A stretch of DNA of 64,000 nucleotides from Hysterangium stoloniferum (Eukaryota > Basidiomycota > Agaricomycetes > Hysterangiales > Hysterangiaceae): positions 3,906,001 through 3,970,000 of the forward strand of contig WHVD01000001.1 in NCBI GenBank assembly GCA_015178975.1. Direction: 5' to 3'. Both the position numbers and the translations under genes were made by a program. Below, piece by piece: positions 9,331-51,081 of this stretch. Below the pieces are notes generated by a model. That model was not told the DNA's origin. It was given only the letters and a program-made list of their open reading frames with translations, and did no database searches. The stretch's first letter is position 1. Each line of letters opens with the position of its first letter.

Positions 9331-10148
9331 TGTTACGACCGGACAATCCTGCTGGACTCTGGGCACTAACCCGTATGCCCCCATGCCCTACACACACCAA
9401 ATGTCTGTTTATAGGATTTCCCGCCCGGACTCCGTATGTCAAGACTCATTACGTTTGACCTCATTACGACACATATCAGTTACTGGACTTCCCCCGGACT
9501 CTGTCTCTGTCTATGTCCATCTTCGTCCCACGCATCAGTCATGGGACCCCACTCAGAATCCCATCACCACTCTAATCGAGCCCCGTTCCCGTTTTAGTCA
9601 AATGACCTGTCACAATTTAGGACTCTGCTCCCACTCCATTTCCCGTTATGGGTTATGCTTTGTCACGATTCGGACTCCACTCCATTCCATCCCATTCCTA
9701 ACACCAAACTTGGTGTTTATTATTCCCATTTTATGTTTTGCTCGTTTCGTTTCATTATTACTGGATTTGGTATGACATTTACTCCACGGTCTATTTAAAC
9801 TGGCAGATGTTGTACATACAATCCAGTCAGACAATTAGCTTAGATTCCCCCCAGTAATCTAATCCATTTCCCACTCTAAACCCTTGCTTGATTCACACCA
9901 CTCACACTAGTCGGAGCCCACGGGCTCCAGCGCATCTATCTCTCTCAACTATCTCAACTCACAACCCACGACCTCCAACCTATGACCTATGACCCACGAA
10001 CCCCACCTGGACTCCCCAGGATTCCTGTCCACCTGTTCAAAATTGGACAACACGATCTAGCGAGGGCGCAGCCTATAAGCTGAAGCCAAGTCCTACCGGA
10101 TATCCCATAGGTTTCTCCGGAGACCCACCCTGTGTGTGTATCCTAACA
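9331..10148 (+). mobile_element. Solo LTR, family 2 (same family as the intact chromovirus)
   Basis: An 818-bp LTR, TGTTACGACCGG…TATCCTAACA, in plus orientation, inserted inside the gag fragment. It contains the TATA box (ATTTAAACTGGCAG, mutated from TATATAAAC), the start sequence (AGTCAGACAAT), the U5 motif (10062-10094) and the U5 hairpin. Flanking 5-mers are GTTGG and GTTCA, only three of five matching, so the target duplication is decayed. Many CpG positions of the intact LTR are TpG or CpA here. Confidence 0.85.
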
Positions 10149-10745: not shown

Positions 10746-11852
10746 GCACGGAAGTTGCCTGCGAGACCTCCATGGACAAAGTAAACAAGTCCACGGCCAA
10801 TAAAACCAACAACAACAACTCATCAACCAGCAACCAGAACTCCACACAATCCAACAAGAAGAACGATAGAAAGTCTTCAAACAACAACAACAACAAGGAC
10901 AAGGACAATAACAAGGGTCAACAGTCTGGCAAGCAAGCCGGAAAACCCAACCTCTCAGGCAAACTCGGACCTGATGGCAAATTGACCCCACAGGAAAGAC
11001 AATGTCGCATGGACAATAACCTTTGTCTCTTGTGCAGGAAACCCGGTCATCAAGTCCCGGAATGTCCACTGGCAAAAGCAAACTCTTCAAAAGGTCGAAC
11101 AGCCAAGGCCTCCACAGAAACCCTGTCAAAGGACAAACTGGCTTCCAACTCGAAAAAAGAGAGCATTCTAGTCGTTGTTGACAGATTCTCAAAACAAGGT
11201 ATATTCATCCCTACTTATGATACAATTACGTCCGTGCAGTTAGCGGAACTTTTTATTATCCACGTATTTTCCAAGCATGGAGTTCTGTCCCATGTAACCT
11301 CTGATCGAGGATCAGAGTTCGTGTCTCACTTCTTTAGATCCCTCAGGAAATCCTTGGACATGAAATTACATTTCACATCCGGACATCACCCAGAAGGCAA
11401 TGGACAAACTGAATGTGTCAATCAGACATTGGAACAATATCTCCACATATATTGCAATTATCAACAGGACAATTGGAAATCCTTGTTACCACTTGCAGAA
11501 TTTGCTTACAACAATGCACCCTTGGCCACTACTGGTGTTTCCCCGTTCTTTGCAAATAAAGGATATAATACAAATATTACAGTACATCCAGAATGAAATC
11601 TCACCTCTGCTCACACTCAAGAGTTCACCGTGGACCTCCATGAGCTCCACGAGGAACTCCAGACTGCAATAAAGTCTGCCCAAGAGCAATATCAACATTC
11701 AGTGGACAAACACCAGATTCTGCCACCCAACTTCAAGATTGGTGACTGTGTTTTTGTCAAAGCTCAATTCTTTCCGACAACCCGTCCATCAAAAAAGCTT
11801 GGTGAAAAATATTTAGGTCCTTTTGAAATAATTGCACAAGTAGGTTCCAAGA
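10746..11852 (+). pseudogene. Internally deleted Gypsy-2 copy: gag tail fused in frame to integrase
   Basis: The frame 10772-11596 starts in the Asn/Lys-rich tail of Gypsy-2 gag, passes the CCHC knuckle (CLLCRKPGHQVPEC) and SNSKKE at the gag end, then goes straight into the integrase core (ILVVVDRFSKQ). Protease, RT, RNase H and the H2C2 zinc finger (about 2.7 kb) are missing. The integrase D-D-E residues remain (DRFSKQ, SDRGSEF, PEGNGQTE). One stop (TGA at about 11594) sits where the intact copy has CGA, i.e. a CpG change. The frame then continues at 11630-11850 into the integrase C-terminal region. No LTRs flank the fragment. Confidence 0.8.
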
Positions 11853-12272: not shown

Positions 12273-12609
12273 GACACTGATTCTACACATGTTTAGCTAT
12301 ATACTATATTTGCTTGAGATTTCTTGCTATTTTATCTCCCCTGGTAGTAGCCTACCAATATTCAAATGTCAAACATTGAAAAGGTTTTGAGAGTCACTGT
12401 ATGACCTCAACCTCAACTCCAATATTTGTCACTTTGGTTTCTGACTGTTTACATACAGCTCGGTTTCAGATCACTGAGTATTACCTTATACATTTGAAAT
12501 TTAAGGACATTTGATGGTACCCCTGTGAGGGTGCAGCACATAAGCTGAAGCCAAGTCCTTCCATTCGGTCCCCATCAGTTCCCTGAACCTCTTGTTTTAG
12601 TTCTTAACA
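12273..12609 (+). repeat. LTR-like 3' end (TTCTTAACA) with U5 motif
   Basis: Follows the Gypsy-1 RNase H fragment. It contains the U5 motif in plus orientation at 12527-12560 (ATAAGCTGAAGCCAAGTCC) and ends in TTCTTAACA at 12609. I could not find the left LTR end or a target duplication. Confidence 0.45.
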
Positions 12610-12639
12610 ATCATCAGGAAAAGGCTTGAATAGAGGGGA

Positions 12640-13496
12640 ACATAAGAAAGAGGTGGAGTGAAAATGGGCAGAAGAGCAGAGGTTGTGAGAAGATGTGGAA
12701 AAGAAGTGGAAAGAGGAGGAGGAGAGATTGAAGGGAAAGTAGGAAGGAAAGGTGAGTGGAAATTTAATTCCATTGGATATTCCATTAACAATGAAATAGT
12801 GAAAAGCCATCAAGTTGGATGTGGAAGAGGCTGGGCCTTTGGAACTCAAAGTAAGGGGTTTTGTTTAAATTCTGGAATTTGTGGCTAATATCCAAAATAG
12901 AAACAAAGATCAGGGTTCCAGAGTGGATCAACATCAATGATGTTCTGTGCAAATGGTGAGAAGATTGGGGAATCAAATGTGGAAAGCAGAAGACCAAGTG
13001 TGCATCTTGTTATCCTTGTGTGGTTAAAAAAGTTCTGTGCACACTCTCTGGGAAACAGGTTTTGAAAGGTGCAAAGATCGAAAAGACAGGTAAAGTGGAA
13101 GAAAAGGAGAAAACAGGAATTGCCAGAAAAACCAAAACTTCCAAGCCATTGGAACCTCAACTCAGCACAAGAGAGCTGATTAATCTCCATGCAGAGGAGC
13201 ATTTGCAAGCCCAGGTGAATGTGATGATTTGGATTGTGGAAGAGTTAGAAGCATTGTGGAAGGCAGCGGAACTTAATACCTGGATTCAAGTGAAGGGTTT
13301 GAGAGCATTGAATGAGAATTTCCAGAAACAAAATGGCATTTTGGAAAAGGTCATGGCAGCTATTGGTGTCATTGCAGTGACCAAAGAAAATCAGGTGGAG
13401 CTGCCAGGAGGGGAAAGTGGGGTGGTGGTGAAAGTCAAGGACATTATGGAAGTTGAGAGGGAACCAAAAGGTGATGTGGAGGAGCCAAAATTCTGA
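12640..13496 (+). pseudogene. Decayed copy of the retrotransposon antisense Zn2Cys6 gene
   Basis: The frame through 12930-13496 contains Cys residues at 12948, 12978, 13008, 13017 and 13038. With the TGA at 12957 counted as a former Cys codon, the spacing is C-X2-[stop]-X6-C-X9-C-X2-C-X6-C, identical to the intact gene at 42686-43668. Downstream lies a helical, charged region (VEELEALWKAAEL, LNENFQKQNGILEKV) that parallels DEVLGRIAEGIEAQ…LREEF of the intact protein. The first exon is not clear. As in the intact element, a chromovirus pol 3' end on the minus strand follows (13742-14420). Confidence 0.65.
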
Positions 13497-13605
13497 GAAG
13501 CTGAGACTTTAAAGGAATATGTACAATGATTTTAATAAATTTGACTTGCAAAGATTGTCAGTGTCAACTTGTTAAGATTCTGTAAGATGAAAATAAGGAC
13601 AGACA

Positions 13606-13735
13606 GATGTCCAAAATGTCAGAAATGTCAGAAATATCAGAAATGTTGGAATGATGGAAAATGGAATGTTGGAATGATGGAAAATAGAATGATGGAATGA
13701 TGGGAAATGGAATGTTGGAAAGATGGAAGCTAGAG
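13606..13735. repeat. Degenerate minisatellite
   Basis: Imperfect tandem copies first of a TGTCAGAAA unit, then of a ~14-bp GGAATGATGGAAAA unit. No coding potential. Confidence 0.8.
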
Positions 13736-13741
13736 TGATGA

Positions 13742-14420
13742 TAAAGGACCAGGTTTACTAGGGTAATTGTTGTGGAAGTCAAGTACAATTTCCATAGTGT
13801 GTGTTAGGACTGGGAAACCCACAGGGACCTGGAACCTATCCTATATGCACTCAACTTTCTATATCACATGAACCAGTCACCAGACTCCAACTGGACACCC
13901 TGGACCCCCTTGTTCCCAATCCAGACACTCTGGATTCCCTTGTTCCCAATCCATTTGACAACTTGTTTATTACGTTCTTTGTTTTATTGTATGCCTGATA
14001 TGACCTTTTGTCTCTCTGGATTTGTAGTACAATAATCTACAAGTCTATATAGTCCAGCTACTACCTGTACTTACAATCCAATCAGAAAATCAACTAAGTA
14101 ACCTCCTAGTAACTTACCTCAGCATATTCTCAGAACCCACAGGTTTCCCATCTGCTCCTGTCTGAAATTGGACACTGCCATCTTTTGAGGGGGGAGCATA
14201 TAAGTTGAAGCCAAGTCCTTTCCCAAAATTTCCACAGGTTTCTCCAGAGACCTACCCATAAGCCCTGTACTTAACAGTGTGCCCAAGTTCCAAAGCCAAT
14301 ATTCAGGAAGTTTTCTCATCAGTACCTTCATAGCCTGCCCATTTGACTACATAAATAAAGCAATTAACAAGTGCAATGGTGGTTGTCAATCTTGGAGTCT
14401 TGTGATGGTAGAGAAGAATA
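13742..14420 (-). pseudogene. pol: Chromovirus pol 3' end (chromodomain), split by a solo LTR
   Basis: The + sequence 13742-13801 plus 14277-14420 aligns by eye with 43890-44060, the 3' end of the intact pol. Read on the minus strand it encodes chromodomain text (LDSKID…, VKWAGYEGTDE) with stops. The solo LTR 13802-14276 lies within it, flanked by GTGTG on both sides. Together with 12640-13496 this preserves the 'antisense gene next to pol end' layout of the intact element. Confidence 0.75.
13802..14276 (+). mobile_element. Solo LTR, family 4, with GTGTG target duplication
   Basis: A 475-bp LTR, TGTTAGGACTGG…GTACTTAACA, flanked by GTGTG at 13797-13801 and 14277-14281 (perfect). It contains TATATAG, then about 34 nt later AATCAGAAAAT (predicted transcript start), the U5 motif (14187-14220) and a hairpin AGGTTTC-TCCA-GAGACCT (14236-14253). 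Confidence 0.9.
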
Positions 14421-38389: not shown

Positions 38390-40217
38390 AAGCATACTCC
38401 TCACACCCTGCAACCTGTTTTTAGACTCATAACCCCCCATTGTCCCACTATTGGCACCCCCACTCAAAGTATCAGCACCCGCAGCACCCTGACACTTGTT
38501 GTCATCATAGTACAACCCATTAGCTTTCTGTTCCATCCCCATTCTGCTTTGCTCCCCCATCACCATTCCATACAGCCCCATTTCCCACTTCACATGTTTA
38601 GTATACTTCACTATATGAACTTTAGTCTCACTTGCATCCTGTTATGACTGGACAATCCTGCTGGACTCCGGGCACTAACCTGTACACCACCACGCCCTAC
38701 ATGCACCAATCGTCTGTTTATAGGAATTCCCGCCCAGACTCCGTACATCAAGACTTGTTACATTCGACCTCATTACGACATATATCAGTCACCAGACTTC
38801 CCCCGGACTCTGTCTCTGTTTATGTCCGTCTTTGTCCCACGCATCAGTCACTGGACCCTGCTCAGAATCCCGTCACTGCTCTAATCGAGCCCCATTCCCA
38901 TTTTAGTCAAATGACCTGTCACGATTTGGACTCCGCTCCCGCTCCATTTCCCATTATGGGTTATGCTTTGTCATGATTCAGACTCTGCTCCGTTCTGTCC
39001 TGTTCCTAACACCAAACTTGGTGTTTATTATTCCCGTTTTATGTTTAGTTAGTTTCATTTCGTCATTACTGGATTTGATATGTCATTCACTCCACGGTCT
39101 ATATAAACTGGCAGATGTTGTACATACAATCCAGTCAGAAAATTAGCTTAGATTCCCCCCAGTAATCTAATACATTTTCCGCTCTAAAGCCCTACTTGAT
39201 TCACACCGCTCGCACTAGTTGGAGCCCACGGGCTCCAGCATATCTATCTCTCTCACCAGTCTCGACTCACGACCCACGACCTCCGACTTACGACTCACAA
39301 CCCACGGCCCCCACCCGGACTCCCTGGGATTCCCGTCTGCCTGTCTGAGATTGGACAACACGATCTAGCAAGGGTGCAGCCTATAAGCTGAAGCCAAGTC
39401 CTACTGGATATCCCGTGGGTTTCTCCGGAGACCCGCCCTGTGTGTGTATCCTAACACATCCCCATTTCCTTCCCCTACTTCCTTTTGACCCATCATCACT
39501 CTCGCTTCCTTGATTGGCCCTCTGGTCATCTGTCTCCCTGTAGTATAAAGTTCTTTCATGTATGCTACAGTTTCTTCAGTTCAAAAATTGATTTAGATTA
39601 CCCCCTTTAGTTCTCAGTTCTATTACTCCTATTTTCTAATACCCTCAAAGGTGTCTTCAGCAAGCCATAACCCTTTATCTCTCAACTGTTAGTAATCCGG
39701 CCCTCCAGTCAACTGAGCTAAGTATTGACCTCTGTTTCCATTGTACTATCTGCTCTGTTTGAAATACTGGAGCATCCTAACAGTTCATATGAGGGCAAAA
39801 CACATAAGTTGAAGCCAAGCTCCACTACATTTTATAGAGTTGGGCCTCCTGACTAGTATGATCTCTATCACCAGCCCCCCAATTAACTTGTGTCATATCA
39901 TCAGACCCCCAATTAGAGTCTCTCTTCCCCCTTTAGGCTTAGATCTTAACATCAGCAAGCTGTAACTCTTTATCCCACAACTCTTAGCACTTCAGCCCTC
40001 TGGTTGAGCCAGCTATGTATGTAAGTGTTGTATTTAGTTCTTATCATACTATCTGCTCTGTTTGAAATACCAGAGCATCTTAACAGTTTGCAACACATAA
40101 GTTGAAGCCAAGCTCCACCCATTTTATAGAGTCAGACCTCCCAACTAGTATGATCTCTAATGTTGGCCCCCCAACTTAGAGCCCCCTTTTAACCCTTTGC
40201 ATATGTAGATCATAACA
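38390..40217 (+). repeat. LTR, family 6, with internal 3' duplication and a nested solo LTR
   Basis: Family 6 LTR sequence 38390-38639 resumes at 39457 after a nested solo LTR. TATA-like TATAAAGT (39543) and a U5 motif (39791-39820) are present, ending GATCTTAACA at 39951. The segment 39650-39951 is then repeated once, imperfectly, to GATCATAACA at 40217, with a second U5 motif at 40090-40112. The matching family member in minus orientation is at 51724-52440. Confidence 0.7.
38640..39456 (+). mobile_element. Solo LTR, family 2, with CATCC target duplication
   Basis: An 817-bp LTR, TGTTATGACTGG…TATCCTAACA, flanked by CATCC at 38635-38639 and 39457-39461 (perfect). It carries TATATAAAC, then the start sequence AGTCAGAAAAT 33 nt later, the U5 motif and the U5 hairpin. 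CpG decay is intermediate. Confidence 0.92.
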
Positions 40218-41044: not shown

Positions 41045-41654
41045 TGTTAAGAGTTGTGTGTGGAGCTTATCAGAGGGTTTCTGGAGAAACCCATGGGAAA
41101 GCCGGTAGGACTTGGCTTCAGCTTATAGGCTGCACCCTCATGAGATCGTGTCATCCAATTTCAGATGGGCAGATGGGAATCCTGGGGAGTCCGGGAGTAG
41201 TTGGTGGGTTGTGAGGTCATGGGGGGTGACTGTGGGAATCCCATGGAAGTCGAGGGGTCAGACAGAGATGAGTCAGAGGTCGTGTGATAGATAGGTTGGA
41301 GCCCATGGGCCCTGACGAGGTAAATAGTGGTGTGTTTCAAAGAGGAGATTAGAGTGGAAAATGTACTGAGATTACTGGGAAGAATCTAAGCTGATTTTCT
41401 GACTGGATTGTATGTACAACATCTGCCAGACTATATAGACTGTGGAATGTATGTCATACCAAATCCAGTAATAATGAAATCCAAACTAGTAATCATGAAA
41501 TGAGATAAGTAAACACCAAGTTTGGTGTTAGGAACAGAACAGAGTGGAGCAGAGTCTGAAATGTGACAGGTCATTAGGAATGGGGTGGGAGTGGAGTCTG
41601 AAACATGACAGGTCATTTAACCATAATGGGAATGGGGCTCAGTTAGAGGGCTGA
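41045..41654 (-). mobile_element. Older family-2-related solo LTR, left part (target duplication GATGT)
   Basis: Starts TGTTAAGAG and carries the U5 hairpin and U5 motif (41107-41139). It is broken at 41654 by the intact chromovirus; the right part is 49763-49996, ending GTAACA. The outer flanks 41040-41044 and 49997-50001 are both GATGT, a perfect duplication, so the two parts are one ~844-bp solo LTR. Heavily CpG-depleted. Confidence 0.9.
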
Positions 41655-42475
41655 TGTTAGGATACACACTCAGGCCGGGTTTCCGGAGAAACCCGCGGGA
41701 TATCCGGTAGGACTTGGCTTCAGCTTATAGGCTGCGCCCTCGCTAGATCGTGTTGTCCAATTTCAGACAGGCGGACGGGAATCCCGGGGAGTCCGGGCGG
41801 GGGTTCGTGGGTCGTGAGTCGTAGGTCGTGAGTCGAGAGTCGTGAATCGAGATAGTCGAGAGAGATAGATGCGCCGGAGCCCGTGGGCTCCGACTAGTGC
41901 GAGCGGTCTGATGAGAGTAGGGTTTTTAGAGAGGAAAATGTATTAGATTACTGGGGGGAATCTAAGCTAATTTTCTGACTGGATTGTATGTACAACATCT
42001 GCCAGTTTATATAGACCGTGGAATGCATGACATACCGAATCCAGTAATAATGAGACGAGACGAGCAAAACATAAAACGGGAATAGTAAACACCAAATTGG
42101 TGTTAGGAACGGGACGGAACGGAGCGGAGTCCGAATCGTGACAAAGCATAACCCATAACGGGAAACGGAGTGGGAGCGGAGTCCTAAATCGTGACAGGTC
42201 ATTTGACTAAAACGGGAACGGGGCTCGATTAGAGCGGTGACGGGATTCTAAGCGGGTCCGGTGACTGATGCGTGGGACGAAGACGGACATAGACAGAGAC
42301 GGGGTCCGGGGGAAGTCCGGTGACTGATATGTGTCTTAATGAGGTCGAACGTAACGAGTCTTGACGTAACGGAGTCCGGGCGGGAAATCCTATAAACAGA
42401 CGATTGGTGCTTGTAGCGCGTGGAGGCATACGAGTTAGTGCCCGGAGTCCGGCGGGATTTGTCCGGGTCGTAACA
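41655..42475 (-). mobile_element. 3' LTR of the intact chromovirus Gypsy-2
   Basis: 821 bp, TGTTAGGATACAC…GGTCGTAACA on +. It appears identical to 48937-49757 when compared line by line. Preceded by GCTGA (41650-41654), which is repeated at 49758-49762 after the other LTR. Six GTCCGG words lie in its U3 part (42256, 42304, 42315, 42374, 42447, 42461). Confidence 0.95.
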
Positions 42476-42539
42476 GTATCCTCCCTTTATGCCGAAGTCC
42501 CAAAGAGGCTCTAGACCTAAATAAGGTTCTTGTCGGCTA

Positions 42540-42640
42540 CGCGCATGTGTCAAAAGTCATGTCGGTTACACGTATGTGTCAAAGAGTCATGTGATCTGGA
42601 AGGTAAGGTTCAAACGCGACGAGCCTATATAAAAAATTGA
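42540..42640 (+). promoter_or_regulatory. Promoter of the antisense Zn2Cys6 gene
   Basis: TATA box TATATAAAA at 42626-42634, 52 nt before the ATG at 42686. Upstream are two near-direct repeats of ATGTGTCAAAnAGTCATGT (about 42545-42562 and 42574-42593). The same ATGTGTCAAAAG word and a TATA box are kept in the decayed copy near 573-626. Confidence 0.65.
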
Positions 42641-42685
42641 AAAAATAGAAATTTCTTCTTCTTTATTACCCCCATCTTCGTCACT

Positions 42686-43668
42686 ATGGGACCAAAACCA
42701 ACACCACGCAAACCAATGCCGACAGCAGGGCCCTCCACGGGCACTCCGTATCGGGCGCCGTGGACGGCGGCCCAATTGTTGGCGCGGCGAGAAGAGCAGC
42801 GCCAGCTTCGTGAAGCAGCAGAGAGAGAGGCGAGGGAGGCTGAGGAGGCCCTGGACAAGGAGTACCAGGAAGCATTGGCCGCGGAGGAAGAGGCCGCAAA
42901 GGAGAGGGAACGTGAGGCGGAGGAGGCTGCGCGAGTGGCCGCGGAGAACGCCCGGGTGGCTGCGGAGAAAGCCCGGTTGGCCGCGGAGAGGGCCGCCATT
43001 GTTGCGGGAAAAGTAAGTCCCAAATTCACTTGTCGATTGTTTACTGACTTGTGATCTTCAGCGCAAAGCGACAGAGGTGGAGTCCGAGTCCGAGGGGGAG
43101 CCAGAGAGCCCCCAAAAGGTAGGCCTCACGTCCATGGAATACCCGCGGAGACTGACCAACTCAACAGAAGGCAAGGAAGGCGGCGCCAGTCCGTCTTCCG
43201 ACGCGGAACGAGCCGCGGTGTTCCGGTTGCAACGACCGGAACACGGAATGCAACCGAAAGGCCGGCCGGGGGCCGGGATGTTATCAATGCGCGCACCTCA
43301 AGGCGAGGTGCTCGCTTGTGCACGAGCAGGCCACGGGATCCGGGGCGCGAGATATAAGCGGGACGGACGGGTTGTCCGGGTTGGACGAGGTCCTTGGACG
43401 GATCGCCGAGGGCATCGAGGCCCAAAACGAGTTGCTCCGGAAGAGCAACAAGGTCCAAATTGTGGTGGCAAAGGAGCTGTCCGGACTCCGCGAGGAGTTT
43501 TGGAAGTTCCTGGCGGAGTATGGCGGCTATGTCTTTGAAGAGCCGCAAGTCGGGAGTTCCGAGGATGCCGGATCGGATGAGGACGGGGTTGCCGCGGAGG
43601 TCGCGGAGCTCCCAGAGGAGATAGCTGAGGAAGCAGGGAAAAAGAACAGTCCCATAAATGTAGACTGA
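42686..43668 (+). CDS. Retrotransposon-borne antisense Zn(II)2Cys6 protein
   Basis: Three exons, 42686-43012, 43062-43118 and 43168-43668, joined by two 49-nt GT..AG introns (branch points CTGAC in both), all phase 0, give 294 residues. Residues ~30-109 are a highly charged Ala/Glu/Arg helix, likely coiled coil. Residues 146-176 form C-X2-C-X6-C-X9-C-X2-C-X6-C (CSGC…CYQC…C), the spacing of fungal Zn2Cys6 DNA-binding clusters. A second helical part (GLDEVLGRIAEGIEAQNELL) and an acidic C-terminus follow. Without splicing, the first frame stops at 43054. The gene lies opposite in direction to gag-pol, 211 nt from the convergent pol stop, inside the element's LTRs. By known behaviour of the Zn2Cys6 family it could bind CGG-type DNA; the target and role are inference. 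Confidence 0.7.
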
Positions 43669-43879
43669 AAAAGTAGTGTAGAAATAAAAATAATTTGAAT
43701 TATAAAAGCAAAGCGTGAAAGAAAAAACATAAGAATTAAAAGTCAAAGCCAAAGTCCGCGGGGATTCCGCTTAAAGACTTGACAAGACATGTCAGAACCT
43801 GTAAAAGCAAAGAGAGACATAGGGCGACAGGGAATAGTGAAAATGAGTCCAAACGTAACACGGGGTCCGCGGAGTGCGG
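43669..43879. other. Convergent spacer between antisense gene and pol
   Basis: 211 bp shared 3' region of two convergent genes. The homologous spacer in the decayed element is 13497-13741. AATAAA-like words (AAATAAAAATAA near 43682) may serve polyadenylation of the plus-strand gene. Confidence 0.5.
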
Positions 43880-46800
43880 TCAGAGAGACGATAATGGTCC
43901 AGGTTTGAGTGGGTAAGCTGTATGAAAGTCAGTAACAATTTCCGTGGCATTACCAAGTTCCGTGGCCAAAATCCATGAGGTTTCTTCATCGGTGCCCTCG
44001 TAACCCGCCCACTTGACCAAGTAAAGCAGTTTACAAGTGCGTCGACGCTTGTCAATTTTTGAATCTAAAATCTGAGAGATTTCAAACTCGGGTTCTCCGT
44101 CAATGACGACAGGAGGAGGCGGAGATTGCACGCGATCCGGGATAGTGTTAGCAGTACAAGGTTCTAGCATAGAGACATGAAATACCGGGTGTACCGCGCG
44201 CATGCTATCCGGAAGCCGTAGAGTCCAAGAAACTGAACCTACTTGTGCGATAATTTCAAAAGGACCTAAATATTTTTCAGCAAGCTTCTTTGATGGACGG
44301 GTAGTCCGGAAGAATTGAGCTTTGACATAAACACGGTCGCCAATCTTGAAGTTTGGTGGCGGGATCCGGTGTTTGTCCGCTGAATGTTGGTATTGCTCTT
44401 GGGCGGACAATATTGCAGTCCGGAGTTCCTCGTGGAGCTCGTGGAGGTCCGTGGTGAACTCTTGAGCACGAACAGAGGCGAGATTTCGTTCTGGATGTAC
44501 TGTAATATTTGGATTATATCCTTTATTTGCAAAGAACGGGGAAACGCCAGTAGTGGCCGAGGGTGCATTGTTGTAAGCAAATTCTGCAAGTGGTAACAAG
44601 GTTTTCCAATTGTCCTGTTGATAGTTGCAATATACGCGGAGGTATTGTTCCAATGTCTGGTTGACGCGTTCGGTTTGTCCGTCACCTTCCGGGTGATGTC
44701 CGGACGTGAAATGTAATGTCATGTCCAAGGATTTTCCGAGGGATCTAAAGAAGTGAGACACGAACTCTGATCCTCGATCGGAAGTCACGTGGGACGGAAC
44801 TCCGTGCTTGGAAAATACGTGGATAATAAAAAGTTCCGCTAACTGCACGGACGTAATTGTATCATAAGTAGGGATGAATATACCTTGTTTTGAGAATCTG
44901 TCAACAACGACTAGGATAGCGGAAAAGCCTTCGGAATCCGGCAGGTGTTCAATGAAATCCATAGATATAGAATTCCACGGGTGTTCCGGTACCGGGAGTT
45001 GTTTCAAAAGGCCATATGGCTTGTGTCGCTGAGATTTCGAGCGGGGACAAGTAGTGCAAGATTTACAATAGTGCTTAACGAATCCACGGAGTCCGGGCCA
45101 AGTATATTCTCTTCTTATTAATGATAGAGTCTTGTTGTACCCGAAGTGTCCTGAGAGTGGATGATCATGTTTGTATTGAAGGATCCTGAGGCGGAGGCCG
45201 TCGGAGTCCGGTACATAGATCCTATCGTCAAGTCTAATGAAACCATGTTGATCAAGAGACCACCGAGGTTGATCGGGGTCCACGGGATTGTCCAGATGAG
45301 CTTTAGTAACTGGGTCTAGCGGAATTGCCGATAGAATATCTTGATGTAGCTTTTCGATATCCATAATGATAATTCCACGGACAATGGGATTGACGAGGAA
45401 AGTTGCGCGGACCGATGCGGTAAGTTGTTGATTCGTGAAGATAGGTTTCAGGTTGTGCGGATTTACCGTTGCATAGTCGTTGCTCCCCTCTTTAGGATAG
45501 ACGTCCCATCGTCTAGTTAAAGCGTCGGGTTTGCCGCCGAGACGGCCGGGTCGAAAACGGATAATCATGTTGAAGGCGGAGAGATATTCAGACCAGCGGG
45601 CCTGCCGACGGGTCAAGAGTTTTGTGGTAGAAAAGTATTCCAGGTTTTTGTGATCTGTTACAACGTCAATAGGAGCTCCTGAACCTTCCAAATAGTGTCG
45701 CCACGCTTTGAAAGCTGAAAAGATTGCCAGAAGTTCTTTATCATGAACGTCGTAGTTGAGCTCTGCTCCGGTAAAAGTCCGGGACAGAAAAGCCACGGGG
45801 TGAACTTCTCCGTCGGAGTCCTGGATAGAGAGAATGGCTCCAAGTGCATAGTCGGAGGCGTCCGTTTCAACAATGAGCGGGAAGTCCGGTTTCCAATGCG
45901 ACAGAATAGGAGCTGTGGAAAAAGAATTTTTTAAAAGATTGAAAGCTTTTTGACACTTATCGTTAAAGTTCCACGGAGTACCCTTACGCGTAAGACGGGT
46001 AAGGGGTACCGTGATGTCGGAATATCCACGGATAAAACGTCTATAAAAATTGGCAAAGCCGAGGAAGGATTGGATATCTTTAACTTTTCGGGGTTCGGGC
46101 CAGTCTTTGATGACTTGCACTTTAGTTTCGTCCATGCGGAGTCCATCGGGTCCCATCATGAAACCTAGGTATTCCACGGAGTCCGTGTCAAAAGTACATT
46201 TTTTACCATTTGCGAATAAACCATGTTGTCTGAGCCTCCGGAGAACCTCACGGACTTGTTTGTCGTGTTCCGCGGGATTCTCGGAGTAGATAAGAATGTC
46301 GTCCAAGTAAACAATGACGCATACATCGAGCATGTCGGAGAAAATGTCGTTGATAAAACGCTGAAAAACAGACGGGGCATTAGTGAGTCCAAAAGGGATG
46401 ACCAACCACTCGAAAGCCCCATAGCGGGTTCTAAAAGTGGTTTTCCATTCATCGCCCGCGGCAATCCGGACCAAATGATAGGCATGCTTGAGATCTATTT
46501 TGGTGTAAATCCGGGCATTCCGCGGAGCATCGAGCAGGTCAGATATAAGTGGGAGTGGATATTTGTCCTTTTTGGTGACAGCATTGAGTCCTCTAAAATC
46601 AACACATAGTCGAAGGGATCCATCCTTTTTTCTGACAAACAAAACAGGTGCTCCAAAAGGAGACTTTGAGGGTCGAATAAAACCTATGGACAAATGTTCA
46701 TCCAGGAAATCACGGATTGCGGATAGTTCCGTGGACGAGAGCGGGTAAATATGTCCTAGGGGTGGCTGGGCGCCATCTTCAAGATCGATTTTTAAGTCGT

Positions 46801-47737
46801 ATTCTCTATGAGGCGGAAGCCGGTCAGCTTTTCGCTTGCTAAAAACATCCGCGAAGTCATGGTATTTCTCCGGGACGCCTTCTAGGTCAGCAGCTTGCTC
46901 AGATTCGGATACTGGGGTTGAGAAACGTCCAGTTGCTTCATCAATTTTTAAGTTGATAGTGAACGCCTGGGATCCATCCATTTTTGAAGCCCTAATAAAA
47001 GCTGCAGCATTAATCAGAGAAATGGACGGAGGTGCCGTGGGTTCCGGGGAAGCTGTGGGTGCCGTAGGGATCACAGGAGTCCTCGAGACTGCAGGTGCCG
47101 GGAAGGCCATGGGTGCCGTGGAGGCCGAGACAGGCGCAGTTTCCTCGGTCGCCGCGGGAGTTCGGAATGTTATACTGTTAGCTATCCAGTCAATCAACGG
47201 ATTGTAGCGGGTAAGCCAGTTATGTCCTAGAACCACCGAGCAACTTGAGTCTAACTGGGTCACATAGAAAGTGACCAATTGAGATGTTCCACAAGGGAAA
47301 CTGATGGGTAAATCACAAGCTTGGGTAACAACCGAATTACTTGTGCCATCGAAGAGGCGGAGAGCGACGGGATTTATCGAATAAGTTGACAAAGAATTTT
47401 TTTGCGTGAATTTTGTATCTAAAAAACAATGAGTCGAGCCGGAATCTATGAGAGCTGAAAAAACGAATTTCGGAAGCATATTAGACATAAGTTTAACGAA
47501 AAATGAATCAGAATGTGAAAAAGCGGATGCGTTGAGGCGAGTGAACTCTTGAATGCGCGGAGAGGCAACGCAACCCCTAACCCGCGCGGAGTCCGCGGGG
47601 TTGCTTACTCTTTTTTCGAATCGGCAGCCGGTTTGTCCTTCGACGGGGTTTCCGTGGAGGCCTTGGCTGTTCGACCCTTTGAAGAGTTTGCTTTTGCCAG
47701 CGGACATTCCGGGACTCGATGACCGGGTTTCCCGCAC
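43880..47737 (-). CDS. pol: Gypsy-2 pol: protease-RT-RNase H-integrase-chromodomain
   Basis: One open frame of 1,285 codons with no stop, overlapping the gag end by 133 nt in the -1 frame. Domains by residue: retropepsin with D-S-G at 98-100; reverse transcriptase about 330-510 with YLDD at 477-480; RNase H about 620-745 (TDASDYALGA, DVVTDHKNLEY); integrase H2C2 finger about 860-905 (HPLSGHFGYNKT…CKSCTTC); catalytic D-D-E core about 925-1020 (VVVDRFSKQ, TSDRGSEF, PEGDGQTE); and a C-terminal chromodomain about 1215-1275 (KLLYLVKWAGYEGTDEETSW). This order and the chromodomain place it in the chromovirus branch of Ty3/gypsy, close to Tf1/Tf2-type elements. Codons before ~42 overlap gag and are reached only by frameshift, so the true product is probably a Gag-Pol fusion. 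It looks functional. Confidence 0.95.
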   Translation of the reverse strand: MRETRSSSPGMSAGKSKLFKGSNSQGLHGNPVEGQTGCRFEKRVSNPADSARVRGCVASPRIQEFTRLNASAFSHSDSFFVKLMSNMLPKFVFSALIDSGSTHCFLDTKFTQKNSLSTYSINPVALRLFDGTSNSVVTQACDLPISFPCGTSQLVTFYVTQLDSSCSVVLGHNWLTRYNPLIDWIANSITFRTPAATEETAPVSASTAPMAFPAPAVSRTPVIPTAPTASPEPTAPPSISLINAAAFIRASKMDGSQAFTINLKIDEATGRFSTPVSESEQAADLEGVPEKYHDFADVFSKRKADRLPPHREYDLKIDLEDGAQPPLGHIYPLSSTELSAIRDFLDEHLSIGFIRPSKSPFGAPVLFVRKKDGSLRLCVDFRGLNAVTKKDKYPLPLISDLLDAPRNARIYTKIDLKHAYHLVRIAAGDEWKTTFRTRYGAFEWLVIPFGLTNAPSVFQRFINDIFSDMLDVCVIVYLDDILIYSENPAEHDKQVREVLRRLRQHGLFANGKKCTFDTDSVEYLGFMMGPDGLRMDETKVQVIKDWPEPRKVKDIQSFLGFANFYRRFIRGYSDITVPLTRLTRKGTPWNFNDKCQKAFNLLKNSFSTAPILSHWKPDFPLIVETDASDYALGAILSIQDSDGEVHPVAFLSRTFTGAELNYDVHDKELLAIFSAFKAWRHYLEGSGAPIDVVTDHKNLEYFSTTKLLTRRQARWSEYLSAFNMIIRFRPGRLGGKPDALTRRWDVYPKEGSNDYATVNPHNLKPIFTNQQLTASVRATFLVNPIVRGIIIMDIEKLHQDILSAIPLDPVTKAHLDNPVDPDQPRWSLDQHGFIRLDDRIYVPDSDGLRLRILQYKHDHPLSGHFGYNKTLSLIRREYTWPGLRGFVKHYCKSCTTCPRSKSQRHKPYGLLKQLPVPEHPWNSISMDFIEHLPDSEGFSAILVVVDRFSKQGIFIPTYDTITSVQLAELFIIHVFSKHGVPSHVTSDRGSEFVSHFFRSLGKSLDMTLHFTSGHHPEGDGQTERVNQTLEQYLRVYCNYQQDNWKTLLPLAEFAYNNAPSATTGVSPFFANKGYNPNITVHPERNLASVRAQEFTTDLHELHEELRTAILSAQEQYQHSADKHRIPPPNFKIGDRVYVKAQFFRTTRPSKKLAEKYLGPFEIIAQVGSVSWTLRLPDSMRAVHPVFHVSMLEPCTANTIPDRVQSPPPPVVIDGEPEFEISQILDSKIDKRRRTCKLLYLVKWAGYEGTDEETSWILATELGNATEIVTDFHTAYPLKPGPLSSL
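47581..47616 (-). promoter_or_regulatory. Candidate -1 frameshift site at gag/pol junction
   Basis: On the minus strand six A (47616-47611) lie immediately before GAG-TAA, the gag stop (47607-47605). A G/C stem, CCCGCG pairing with CGCGGG (47599-47594 with 47586-47581), follows after an 11-nt spacer. Slipping back one base on the A-run changes S-K-K-E-stop into the pol frame (…E-K-R-V-S-N-P). The heptamer is not a textbook X-XXY-YYZ, and the spacer is slightly long. Confidence 0.5.
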
Positions 47738-48900
47738 AAGAGACAGAGGTTGTTGTCCATACGACGTTGTCTTTCTTGTGGAGTTAATTTGCCATCAGGT
47801 CCGAGTTTGCCTGAGAGGTCGGGTTTTCCGGCTTGCTTGCCGGACTGTTGACCCTTGTTGTTGTCCTTATTGTCCTTATTGTTGTTGTTGTTGTTGTTTG
47901 AAGACTTTTTATCGTTCTTCTTGTCGGATTGCGTGGAGTTCTGGTTGCTGGTTGACGAATTGGTGTTATTGTTTTTGTCCTTGGACTTATTTATTTTGTC
48001 CGCGGATGTCTCGCGGGCAACTTCCGCGCGACGTTCCCAATAACGTGCGTCCGCGTTTTGAGCTTTGAGGCGCATACGGGACAGGGTTTTTGGCTTGCCA
48101 TCTTCTCCTTTTGAGACTTCGTCTTTAAGGCGGGACGGCAGACCGGCGTAGAATTGGTGGCGGAGAGCGGGATCGCCCCACTGACAACGAGCTGCAAGAT
48201 TATTGAATTGGACGATGTAGTCCGTGATGCGCTGCGTGTCCTTCATACGAAGATTTGTGAGACTATTCTCGGCTTCTCCTGTCGGGTCATACGGGCCGAA
48301 GTTGGTTTCAAGCTCCTCAACAAAAGCTTCCCAATTTTCAAGCCAGAGCGGCTCTTCCTCGGTAATCCCGCTAAAAGCCGGTTCAAACCATTTCAACGCG
48401 GATCCCGACAAATATGAAAGTGCGTAGTTGACTTTTCGGGAGTCCGTGGAGAATGCAGCGGCGCGATCGCGGAAATTGAAGCGACATTGCATGAGGAAAG
48501 TAGAGAGTTTGTTTGGGTTGGAACCCGTGAAGGGTTCCGGAGCATTGACTTTTGACCGTGGAGGTTCTTGTTCCTTTCTTTTTCGTTCTTCTAGCAGGTG
48601 CGTCATGAATTTATCTATAGTACCTGCTAAAAACTCAGAAGTAGGATCCCTCGTGTTTGGTCGTTGAAAAGGCGGAGGATTTTCAAGAGGGATTTCGACA
48701 CCTTTGCCCTTGTCGGGGGCCACGGAATCGTCCTCGCGCTCGGATTCGTCCAGGTCTTCCGGGATTTCTTCGATGCGGGCTTCTTCCATGGGTTCCGACT
48801 GGTTCGCAAGCGTCTGACTGGTATACAGAGTTAACGGGGAATGAAGAGTCGACGGTCCAGGCATTGATGACTGTGCGCGTGTACTTCTTCTTGGTGGCAT
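47605..48900 (-). CDS. gag: Gypsy-2 gag (capsid-nucleocapsid)
   Basis: 431 residues, intact. The start MPPRRSTRAQ at 48900 lies 36 nt inside the 5' LTR end. A retrotransposon-gag capsid domain runs from about residue 115 to 260 (FLMQCRFNFRDR, ALSYLSGSALKWFEP, LTNLRMKDTQRITDYIVQFN). An Asn/Lys/Gln-rich low-complexity tract (about 305-360) follows, then the CCHC knuckle CLLCGKPGHRVPEC near 395-408. It forms the virus-like particle that packages element RNA. Ends TAA at 47605-47607, directly after the A-run used as candidate frameshift site. The same gag tail is fused to integrase in the deleted copy at 10772. Confidence 0.95.
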   Translation of the reverse strand: MPPRRSTRAQSSMPGPSTLHSPLTLYTSQTLANQSEPMEEARIEEIPEDLDESEREDDSVAPDKGKGVEIPLENPPPFQRPNTRDPTSEFLAGTIDKFMTHLLEERKRKEQEPPRSKVNAPEPFTGSNPNKLSTFLMQCRFNFRDRAAAFSTDSRKVNYALSYLSGSALKWFEPAFSGITEEEPLWLENWEAFVEELETNFGPYDPTGEAENSLTNLRMKDTQRITDYIVQFNNLAARCQWGDPALRHQFYAGLPSRLKDEVSKGEDGKPKTLSRMRLKAQNADARYWERRAEVARETSADKINKSKDKNNNTNSSTSNQNSTQSDKKNDKKSSNNNNNNNKDNKDNNKGQQSGKQAGKPDLSGKLGPDGKLTPQERQRRMDNNLCLLCGKPGHRVPECPLAKANSSKGRTAKASTETPSKDKPAADSKKE

Positions 48901-48923
48901 AATGAAAACAATCTGCGAGTATT

Positions 48924-48934
48924 AGTCAGAAAAT
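48924..48934 (-). promoter_or_regulatory. Self-primer binding site of Gypsy-2
   Basis: On the minus strand ATTTTCTGACT lies 2 nt inside the 5' LTR end, where a primer-binding site is expected. It is the exact reverse complement of AGTCAGAAAAT (49262-49252), which lies 33 nt downstream of the LTR TATA box, i.e. the predicted 5' end of the transcript. Match length is 11 nt with mismatches on both sides, as in Tf1 self-priming. No tRNA 3'-end complement (TGG…) is present. Confidence 0.75.
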
Positions 48935-48936
48935 AC

Positions 48937-49757
48937 TGTTAGGATACACACTCAGGCCGGGTTTCCGGAGAAACCCGCGGGATATCCGGTAGGACTTGGC
49001 TTCAGCTTATAGGCTGCGCCCTCGCTAGATCGTGTTGTCCAATTTCAGACAGGCGGACGGGAATCCCGGGGAGTCCGGGCGGGGGTTCGTGGGTCGTGAG
49101 TCGTAGGTCGTGAGTCGAGAGTCGTGAATCGAGATAGTCGAGAGAGATAGATGCGCCGGAGCCCGTGGGCTCCGACTAGTGCGAGCGGTCTGATGAGAGT
49201 AGGGTTTTTAGAGAGGAAAATGTATTAGATTACTGGGGGGAATCTAAGCTAATTTTCTGACTGGATTGTATGTACAACATCTGCCAGTTTATATAGACCG
49301 TGGAATGCATGACATACCGAATCCAGTAATAATGAGACGAGACGAGCAAAACATAAAACGGGAATAGTAAACACCAAATTGGTGTTAGGAACGGGACGGA
49401 ACGGAGCGGAGTCCGAATCGTGACAAAGCATAACCCATAACGGGAAACGGAGTGGGAGCGGAGTCCTAAATCGTGACAGGTCATTTGACTAAAACGGGAA
49501 CGGGGCTCGATTAGAGCGGTGACGGGATTCTAAGCGGGTCCGGTGACTGATGCGTGGGACGAAGACGGACATAGACAGAGACGGGGTCCGGGGGAAGTCC
49601 GGTGACTGATATGTGTCTTAATGAGGTCGAACGTAACGAGTCTTGACGTAACGGAGTCCGGGCGGGAAATCCTATAAACAGACGATTGGTGCTTGTAGCG
49701 CGTGGAGGCATACGAGTTAGTGCCCGGAGTCCGGCGGGATTTGTCCGGGTCGTAACA
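48937..49757 (-). mobile_element. 5' LTR of the intact chromovirus Gypsy-2
   Basis: 821 bp, same length as and apparently identical to 41655-42475, followed by GCTGA (49758-49762). Read on minus: U3 with repeated CCGGAC words, TATA box TATATAA (49295-49289), predicted start AGTCAGAAAAT (49262), GTCGTGAGTCG-type repeats, U5 motif (49023-48991) and hairpin CGGGTTTC/GAAACCCG (48977-48958). Confidence 0.95.
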
Positions 49758-49762
49758 GCTGA

Positions 49763-50241: not shown

Positions 50242-51081
50242 TGTTACAACCGGACAATCCCACCAGACTCCAGGCACTAACCCATACGCCCCCACATGCT
50301 ACAAGCACCAATTGTCTGTTTATAGGATTTCCCGCCCGGACTCCGTTACGTCAAGACTAGTTATGTTCGACCTCATTACGACACATATCAGTCACCGGAC
50401 TTCCCCCGGACTCTGTCTCTGTCTATGTCCGTCTTCGTCCCACGCATCAGTCACCGGACCCCGCTCAGAATCCCGTCACCGCTCTAATCGAGCCCCGTTC
50501 CCGTTTTAGTCAAATGACCTGTCACAATTTAGGACTCCGCTCCCGCTCCATTTCCCATTATGGGTTATGCTTTGTCATGATTCGGACTCCACTCCATTCC
50601 GTCCCGTTCCTAACACCAATTTGGTATTTACTATTCCCGTTTTATGTTTTGTTAGTTTCGTTTCATCATTACTGGATTTGGTATGTCATTCACTCCACAG
50701 TCTATATAAACTGGCAGATGTTGTACATACAATCCAGTCAGAAAATTAGCTTAGATTCCCCCCAGTAATCTAATAACATTTTCTGCTCTAAAACCTTACT
50801 TGATTCACATCACTTTCACTAGTCGGAGCCCACAGGCTCCGGCACATCTATCTCTCTCAACTATCTCGACTCACGACCCACGACCTCTGACTTACAACCC
50901 ACGACCCCCGACTTACAACCTACGACCCACGAACCCCGCCCGGACTCCCCGGGATCCCCATCCACCTGTTTGAAATTGGACAACATGATCTAGTGAGGGC
51001 GCAGCCTATAAGCTGAAGCCAAGTCCTACCAGATATCCCACGGGTTTCTCTGGAAACCCGCCCTGTGTGTGTATCCTAACA
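50242..51081 (+). mobile_element. Solo LTR, family 2, third copy
   Basis: 840 bp, TGTTACAACCGG…TATCCTAACA, plus orientation. It has TATATAAAC, AGTCAGAAAAT, the U5 motif (50996-51028) and the hairpin. It is longer than its relatives because the CACGACC-type repeat before the U5 motif is expanded. Flanking 5-mers (GACAG / CAGAG) do not match clearly. Confidence 0.85.

Follow-up and report, generated by a model that had tools for sequence, protein, structure and literature searches.

Long terminal repeat (LTR) retrotransposons are usually thought to manage with gag and pol. In a 64,000-nucleotide (nt) stretch of contig WHVD01000001.1 of Hysterangium stoloniferum (Agaricomycetes, Phallomycetidae, Hysterangiales; positions 3,906,001 to 3,970,000, hereafter the window), a false truffle, an intact Ty3/gypsy chromovirus on the minus strand carries a third gene. 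It lies on the plus strand at 42686-43668, between pol and the 3' LTR. Comparison of its copies indicates that purifying selection acts on the gene as a spliced protein, preserving its three exons and keeping six cysteines fixed. We consider it a genuine accessory gene, which would probably make a small zinc-cluster nuclear regulator of its own chromovirus. A third gene with introns, kept by selection on the strand that is not reverse-transcribed, occurs in at least two families of elements, with more than 100 matches each, in one fungal genome.

A three-exon antisense gene

The gene has three exons and a spliced product of 294 amino acids (aa). Exon 1 (42686..43012, plus strand), supported by spliced translation and codon-phase bias, encodes a Pro-rich N-terminus and an Ala/Glu/Arg-rich stretch. 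Exon 2 (43062..43118, RKATEVESESEGEPESPQK) is placed by spliced translation and has a similar counterpart, found by eye, in a second family of copies (family B, the window's own being family A). Exon 3 (43168..43668, stop codon at 43666-43668) encodes a six-Cys zinc-cluster-like domain, a predicted long helix and an acidic C-terminus. The two introns (43013..43061 and 43119..43167) are each 49 nt long, in phase 0 and bounded by GT..AG, and each contains a CTGAC branch-like site; both were delimited from the sequence and the alignment of copies. The six cysteines fall at residues 146-176 with the spacing C-X2-C-X6-C-X9-C-X2-C-X6-C. A sequence-only reading of the window had proposed this gene, with the same coordinates, orientation, intron lengths and phase, product length and cysteine cluster, as carried by an intact minus-strand chromovirus and having its own TATA box, and each of these features was recovered here.

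The gene is an inherited part of the element

A search of the 111-Mb assembly (554 contigs) gave at least 201 matches to the protein, with exons counted separately and the window's own matches among them (133 of 2,100 candidates scored). We took 93 loci, comprising the window (L009), 89 family-A copies (L001-L090 minus L009), two family-B loci (L091-L092) and one further family-A copy (L093, C519). The alignment has 90 rows, the window and the 89 copies, of which 64 are close (window included) and 26 diverged. The C-terminus of pol lies on the opposite strand downstream of the gene, mostly about 200 nt off, in 69 of the 70 flanked loci (L001-L070, window included), and in the remaining one (L037) a deletion has left a piece of integrase there. 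LTR sequence is found upstream in 66 of the 70 (L003 has only a 39-nt piece), and two of the four misses have less than 50 nt upstream. By its flanks, the gene is an inherited part of the element, in the same place and orientation in copies with flanks, which agrees with the earlier proposal that an LTR element carries it. All these copies were found through the antisense gene itself, which bears on the share of gene-less elements. A search with the C-terminus of pol gave 147 matches, many without the gene among the gene matches listed; one such place was examined (C519) and it has the gene.

Some copies diverge as mosaics. In L063 the LTR is 99% identical but the gene 94%, and L043, L047, L002 and L003 are also concerned. 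At synonymous sites the zinc gene has diverged 2.0-3.9 times as much as the pol C-terminus in five of six pairs, and 1.1 times as much in L001. Subfamilies may have recombined, or pol may be under synonymous constraint.

The spliced protein is under selection

Splice dinucleotides are changed in 0 of 504 cases in the 63 close copies (24.0 expected at the intron-core rate) and in 2 of 204 in the 26 diverged copies (57.7 expected). Both introns keep GT..AG in all 90 rows except L064 (intron 1 missing), L084 (intron 2 GT..GG) and L088 (intron 1 GT..AA), and their lengths range over 48-72 nt (intron 1) and 47-51 nt (intron 2). Branch-like CTRAY sites occur in both introns of all 63 close copies; among the diverged copies they occur in 19/25 for intron 1 and 25/26 for intron 2. 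Of the 540 cells that the six cysteine codons make up over the 90 rows, 537 are kept.

Divergence follows the codon phase. It is 0.9, 1.2 and 3.0% at phases 1, 2 and 3 in the close copies, against 4.8% in the intron core. When CpG/TpG/CpA sites are left out, the figures are 0.28, 0.46 and 2.3% (intron 3.6%) in the 63 close copies and 7.7, 5.1 and 27% (intron 25%) in the 26 diverged ones; the pattern persists, so CpG decay is not its cause. Such decay is itself visible in the close copies, where in most contexts 3-8% of CpG cells read TpG/CpA, rising to 40% in ACGT, against about 1-5% change at sites overall, pointing to cytosine methylation of the elements.

The sequence-only reading had called for a genome-wide search for the gene beside other pol ends and for the ratio of non-synonymous to synonymous divergence (dN/dS, omega) across copies, taking the lack of spliced plus-strand transcripts and of a second intact copy, together with a ratio near 1, as the mark of a chance frame. 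Many intact copies exist, and the ratio is well below 1. In 49 of 90 rows (48 of 64 close, 1 of 26 diverged) the gene is intact, keeping its start codon and splice sites and reading open, once spliced, as far as the stop expected. Codon models gave an omega of 0.44 among 30 distinct intact sequences, drawn from a smaller intact group than the 49 rows and chosen for openness, which may lower the estimate. Omega was 0.27 among 20 rows (the window, L043, L047, L063 and 16 frame-intact diverged copies with at most four stops each, masked), a set that holds decayed copies, which raises it; 119 of its 120 cysteine codons are kept. With kappa fixed at 4.4, the log likelihood was -2884.24 against -2906.35 at omega = 1 for the intact set (worse by 22 log units) and -8183.56 against -8483.10 for the 20 rows (worse by 300 log units), so that a ratio of 1 is rejected. 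The splice sites, cysteines, codon-phase bias, omega and the existence of a second family mark it as a selected accessory gene and not a chance frame.

The upstream region is conserved

A TATA box lies at 42626..42634 on the plus strand, recognised by a TATAWAW that is conserved among copies. Of the 88 loci with sufficient upstream sequence (window included), 85 have a TATAWAW no more than 110 nt from the ATG, against 10 on the opposite strand. Further upstream is a conserved block (42530..42610, plus strand) with low divergence in close and diverged copies. Within it, 42566-42610 shows 0.1-0.2% divergence in 61 close copies (intron core 4.8%), and 15-nt blocks over 42521-42610 show 4-11% in the 26 diverged copies (intron core 28%). 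The block holds two imperfect direct repeats (GTCGGyTACrCGyATGTGTCAAA) that start at 42532 and 42561, 29 nt apart. The conservation closest to the LTR may serve the polypurine tract.

A second family shares the introns

A decayed distant relative of the gene was found in the window at 12909..13497 (plus strand) by a weak protein match, with the same Cys spacing and a TGA at the expected second Cys; minus-strand remnants of the pol C-terminus lie beyond it. A search with its open part gave 150 matches genome-wide, the relic itself among them; all but three are at 36-46% identity, and 114 of the 150 have no stop inside the match (counted from rows). The surrounding 12600-14400 is a family-B-like relic in which a zinc-cluster gene piece is accompanied by parts of the pol C-terminus that an LTR-like insert interrupts, and the gene model BU17DRAFT_79369 (P0004) covers part of the zinc-cluster piece.

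Two family-B loci were read, L091 and L092. In L092, with exon limits set by eye, a TATA box precedes exon 1, whose last residues, EGK, are followed by GTAAGTC; then come an exon 2 that is short and acidic, exon 3 and, on the opposite strand, a pol C-terminus that is 77% identical to that of family A. Exon 1 carries a stop, and the cysteines of exon 3 are spaced C-X2-C-X6-C-X10-C-X2-C-X6-C. The pol pieces of L091 are on the opposite strand at a greater distance, and the stretch read contains no pol C-terminus. Both introns are common to families A and B, which suggests that gene and introns are older than the family split. The exon-3 proteins of the two families are only 25% identical, and dN between families is 0.81 for exon 3 against 0.13 for the pol C-terminus (dS is saturated); on these figures the gene is evolving several times faster than pol.

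Few relatives were found beyond this genome. Protein searches, which need shared 5-residue words (7,998 candidates scored in one of them), returned among the matches listed only H. stoloniferum models and P0006, a 227-aa family-B-like protein on a 7.7-kb metagenome contig, the sole relative found that does not bear the name H. stoloniferum. One scan of viral contigs with P0006 gave no relative. Some copies or fragments are annotated as ordinary genes (P0001, P0002, P0004, P0005, P0007 and P0008).

A putative zinc-cluster regulator

Zn(II)2Cys6 proteins bind two zincs and CGG-type DNA, and their cysteines fall in the range C-X2-C-X6-C-X5-12-C-X2-C-X6-8-C, within which the spacing observed here lies. 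Like the fungal Zn(II)2Cys6 regulators (PF00172), the protein has a helical stretch C-terminal of the cluster; an AlphaFold model places a long helix at exon-3 residues 65-118, with a predicted local distance difference test (pLDDT) of 70-82 over most of its length. Unlike them, it stays below the Pfam cut-off and has its basic residues in the second CX2CX6C half and not in the first, which is where the classical order has them. A Zn_clus match at an E value of up to 10 is found in 16 of 20 exon-3 rows, the window included, and the best relative (L083) reaches 20.9 bits.

We propose that the antisense gene would be transcribed from its own promoter towards pol and then spliced. The product would be a small dimeric (coiled-coil) zinc-cluster protein that has a basic stretch resembling a nuclear localisation signal (NLS) and enters the nucleus, and it would regulate the element's expression at the LTR or at internal DNA sites, either as dosage control or as relief from silencing. 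The introns would last because the reverse-transcribed RNA is the opposite strand, in which they are not spliced. The sequence-only reading had given the same reason, the antisense relation of the introns to the genomic RNA, and their presence in the distant second family fits it. Rapid divergence of a protein whose cysteines stay fixed would fit a factor with a target that shifts from one family to the next.

Several observations weigh against this proposal. The Pfam Zn_clus (PF00172) cut-off of 21 bits is not reached by the whole protein (8.0 bits) or by exon 3 (10.2 bits), and neither L091 of family B nor P0006 has a Zn_clus match. The sequence-only reading had held that the spacing defines a fungal Zn(II)2Cys6 domain; the spacing does match, but with the cut-off missed the label 'Zn2Cys6' is unproven. 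Cys-preserving shuffles of the doubled domain reached 22.9 bits in one of ten cases (the others gave 18.0, 12.3, 12.0, 9.0 and 7.2 bits, and four had no Zn_clus row). Because such a shuffle can score equally high, the Zn_clus scores mainly reflect the cysteine pattern. The zinc region has a pLDDT of about 42 in an AlphaFold model built on a three-sequence alignment, and the bipartite basic NLS-like stretch (KRK and KKARK, either side of the exon-2 region) was recognised by eye only. Among the diverged copies, divergence reaches 20% in the 15 nt just ahead of the TATA box (42611-42625) and 28% in the last 15 nt before the ATG, both near the intron rate; one of these copies, L075, has unrelated sequence in that poorly conserved region and was kept in the divergence figures. 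In addition, the codon models ignore CpG decay, and 41 of the 90 rows are broken, including 25 of the 26 diverged ones. Such breakage is expected for old insertions, but it means that the deep comparisons draw on decayed copies.

A circular permutation of the zinc cluster was considered, as Pfam aligns its halves swapped and the doubled domain scores 22.5 bits (14.6 single), and was dropped since one of the ten shuffles scored as high. A hand-shuffled control scored 16.3 bits, and the family-B domain 13.3 bits single and 14.2 doubled (P0006, none). A search of the PDB gave three weak matches only, two talin coiled-coil chains (E 0.07 and 0.09) and a designed binder (E 6.8).

Alternative explanations

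An unlikely alternative is that the protein is real but does not regulate transcription, acting in trans during replication as a zinc-binding nucleic-acid chaperone, a packaging factor or a pre-integration factor, a helper resembling the nucleocapsid (NC) part of Gag or Vpr. Purifying selection and fixed cysteines do not imply DNA binding, and the cluster is poor in basic residues relative to the classical first half. However, gag seems, by eye, to have a CCHC-type knuckle of its own, and supplying a particle from a distinct antisense gene under a promoter of its own would be odd. The basic stretch (KRK...KKARK) fits nuclear work, and the fast divergence of exon 3 between families is unlike that of a core replication factor.

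It is very unlikely that the antisense transcript matters rather than the protein, the region then serving to make an antisense RNA for silencing or buffering the element. The conserved upstream region would suit such a role, and passages of PMC7264820 propose roles for antisense RNA. The codon-phase bias, the omega well below 1 and the fixed cysteines and splice sites nevertheless show that the protein is selected, and both roles may hold together.

Similarly improbable is a recently captured (transduced) host transcription-factor gene. The introns and TATA box look host-like, and some copies and fragments are annotated as ordinary genes. Against this, both introns are shared with the second family at 25% protein identity, so the acquisition is old, none of the 70 flanked loci is an element-free copy, and the protein matches listed include only H. 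stoloniferum models and one metagenome protein. An old capture of a host gene is a possible origin.

Finally, a chance frame, or a real frame on the element's own strand (a minus-strand open reading frame (ORF) of 208 aa at 43126-43752), is hardly credible: that ORF is long and open across exon 3 in 37 of 62 in-frame rows (the plus frame in 48 of 62), but its wobble sites coincide with plus phase 1, which like phase 2 evolves slowly, and plus phase 3 is fast, so the codon-phase pattern is not due to it, and the splice sites of the plus-strand gene are fixed.

Relation to known systems

The gene is an antisense ORF between pol and the 3' LTR, the position and opposite orientation of aORF-3R genes of plant LTR elements. 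These include gene23 of maize Grande, ORF4/TRP28 of Silene Retand and ORF2 of PvRetro13 (passages in PMC7264820 and PMC11963269). Gene23 is described there as having its own promoter and a nuclear product (PMC7264820, PMC11963269), and TRP28 as having predicted DNA binding (passage in PMC11963269). The word 'intron' is absent from the main text of PMC11963269. The plant genes differ in host and domains, the present one having a fungal chromovirus as host, two conserved introns and a six-Cys domain. In fungi, brtn of Boty/BcGypsy1 from Botrytis cinerea is an antisense additional gene of a gypsy element (cited in passages of PMC7264820 and PMC8365987); it belongs to an ascomycete and is likened here by description only, not by sequence. 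Among the open-licence papers listed by our searches, none reported a spliced antisense zinc-cluster-like gene in an LTR element. Antisense genes between pol and the 3' LTR are known, and what appears new here is the introns and the zinc-cluster-like domain in such a gene.

HBZ of human T-cell leukaemia virus type 1 (HTLV-1) is spliced, acts on LTR transcription and is a basic leucine zipper (bZIP) protein. It differs from the present product in being a bZIP of a retrovirus, and no homology is claimed; it is like it in being antisense-coded, and HBZ is nuclear (passage in PMC11963269).

The gene illustrates a way for introns to survive in a retroelement that is copied through RNA. Its copies of differing age form a natural series for asking what antisense accessory genes are selected for, and the question of their function can be put to the test with one small protein.

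A dispersed motif in gag and pol

The element contains eleven TCCrCGGA/TCCGyGGA sites (43866, 45083, 45374, 45970, 46025, 46173, 46519, 46728, 47651, 47999 and 48443), against two in the remaining 53 kb of the window. The motif was chosen after inspecting the data, and with that choice pol has 8 sites against 1.60 +/- 1.21 in dinucleotide-preserving synonymous shuffles, and gag 3 against 0.53 +/- 0.61, values reached by 0 of 200 shuffles in each case. CCACGG is the top sequence among 6-mers occurring at least five times in pol. The motif was not found in the LTR or in the antisense promoter, and the family-B pol, which is CpG-poor, has zero CCACGG in 2,787 nt. TCCGCGGA is the yeast Pdr1/Pdr3 site. 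Context-dependent CpG survival was considered as a source of artefact; wherever a context had data the decay was 3-8%, apart from ACGT (40%).

The scattered motif hints at an anti-silencing or self-recognition role but does not amount to evidence that the protein binds it. The antisense product is presumably unrelated to VANC of Arabidopsis. VANC proteins are anti-silencing proteins of VANDAL elements that bind motifs in their own transposable element (TE) and change between related TEs (PMC5735166); the antisense product resembles them in being TE-encoded and in changing in this way. VANDAL elements are of another kind, and for the antisense product a VANC-like binding to motifs in its own element is a lead from motif enrichment. 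It is quite unlikely, though conceivable, that the fast-evolving zinc-cluster protein recognises these everted CGG-type sites in its own gag-pol, keeps the element from host silencing and co-evolves with the sites as families split; it would then be the equivalent of VANC in an LTR element, produced by a spliced antisense gene.

The host element and related sequences

The chromovirus occupies 41655-49757 on the minus strand, with paired LTRs, a target-site duplication (TSD), the order protease, reverse transcriptase, RNase H and integrase, and a chromodomain after the integrase. Its 3' LTR (41655..42475) and 5' LTR (48937..49757) are both 821 bp long with zero mismatches between them, and the insertion is very recent. 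The LTR limits were placed by eye from the TG..CA ends, as was the 5-bp TSD GCTGA at 41650-41654 and 49758-49762. Minus-strand AAAGGGAGGATA (42476..42490, by eye) adjoins the 3' LTR. The pol frame (43880..47737, 1285 aa, minus strand) carries the five domains as Pfam matches, and gag (47608..48900, 431 aa, minus strand, from ORF reading) overlaps it at 47608-47737 in a different frame, which suggests a programmed frameshift.

LTR copies of the same family lie at 9331-10148, 38636-39456 and 50242-51081 (88-89% identity, opposite orientation) and are perhaps solo or truncated. A plus-strand relic at 11030-11850, in which the end of gag and start of the pol frame are fused to internal pol (residues 940-1168, 89% identity), is an internally deleted relative.
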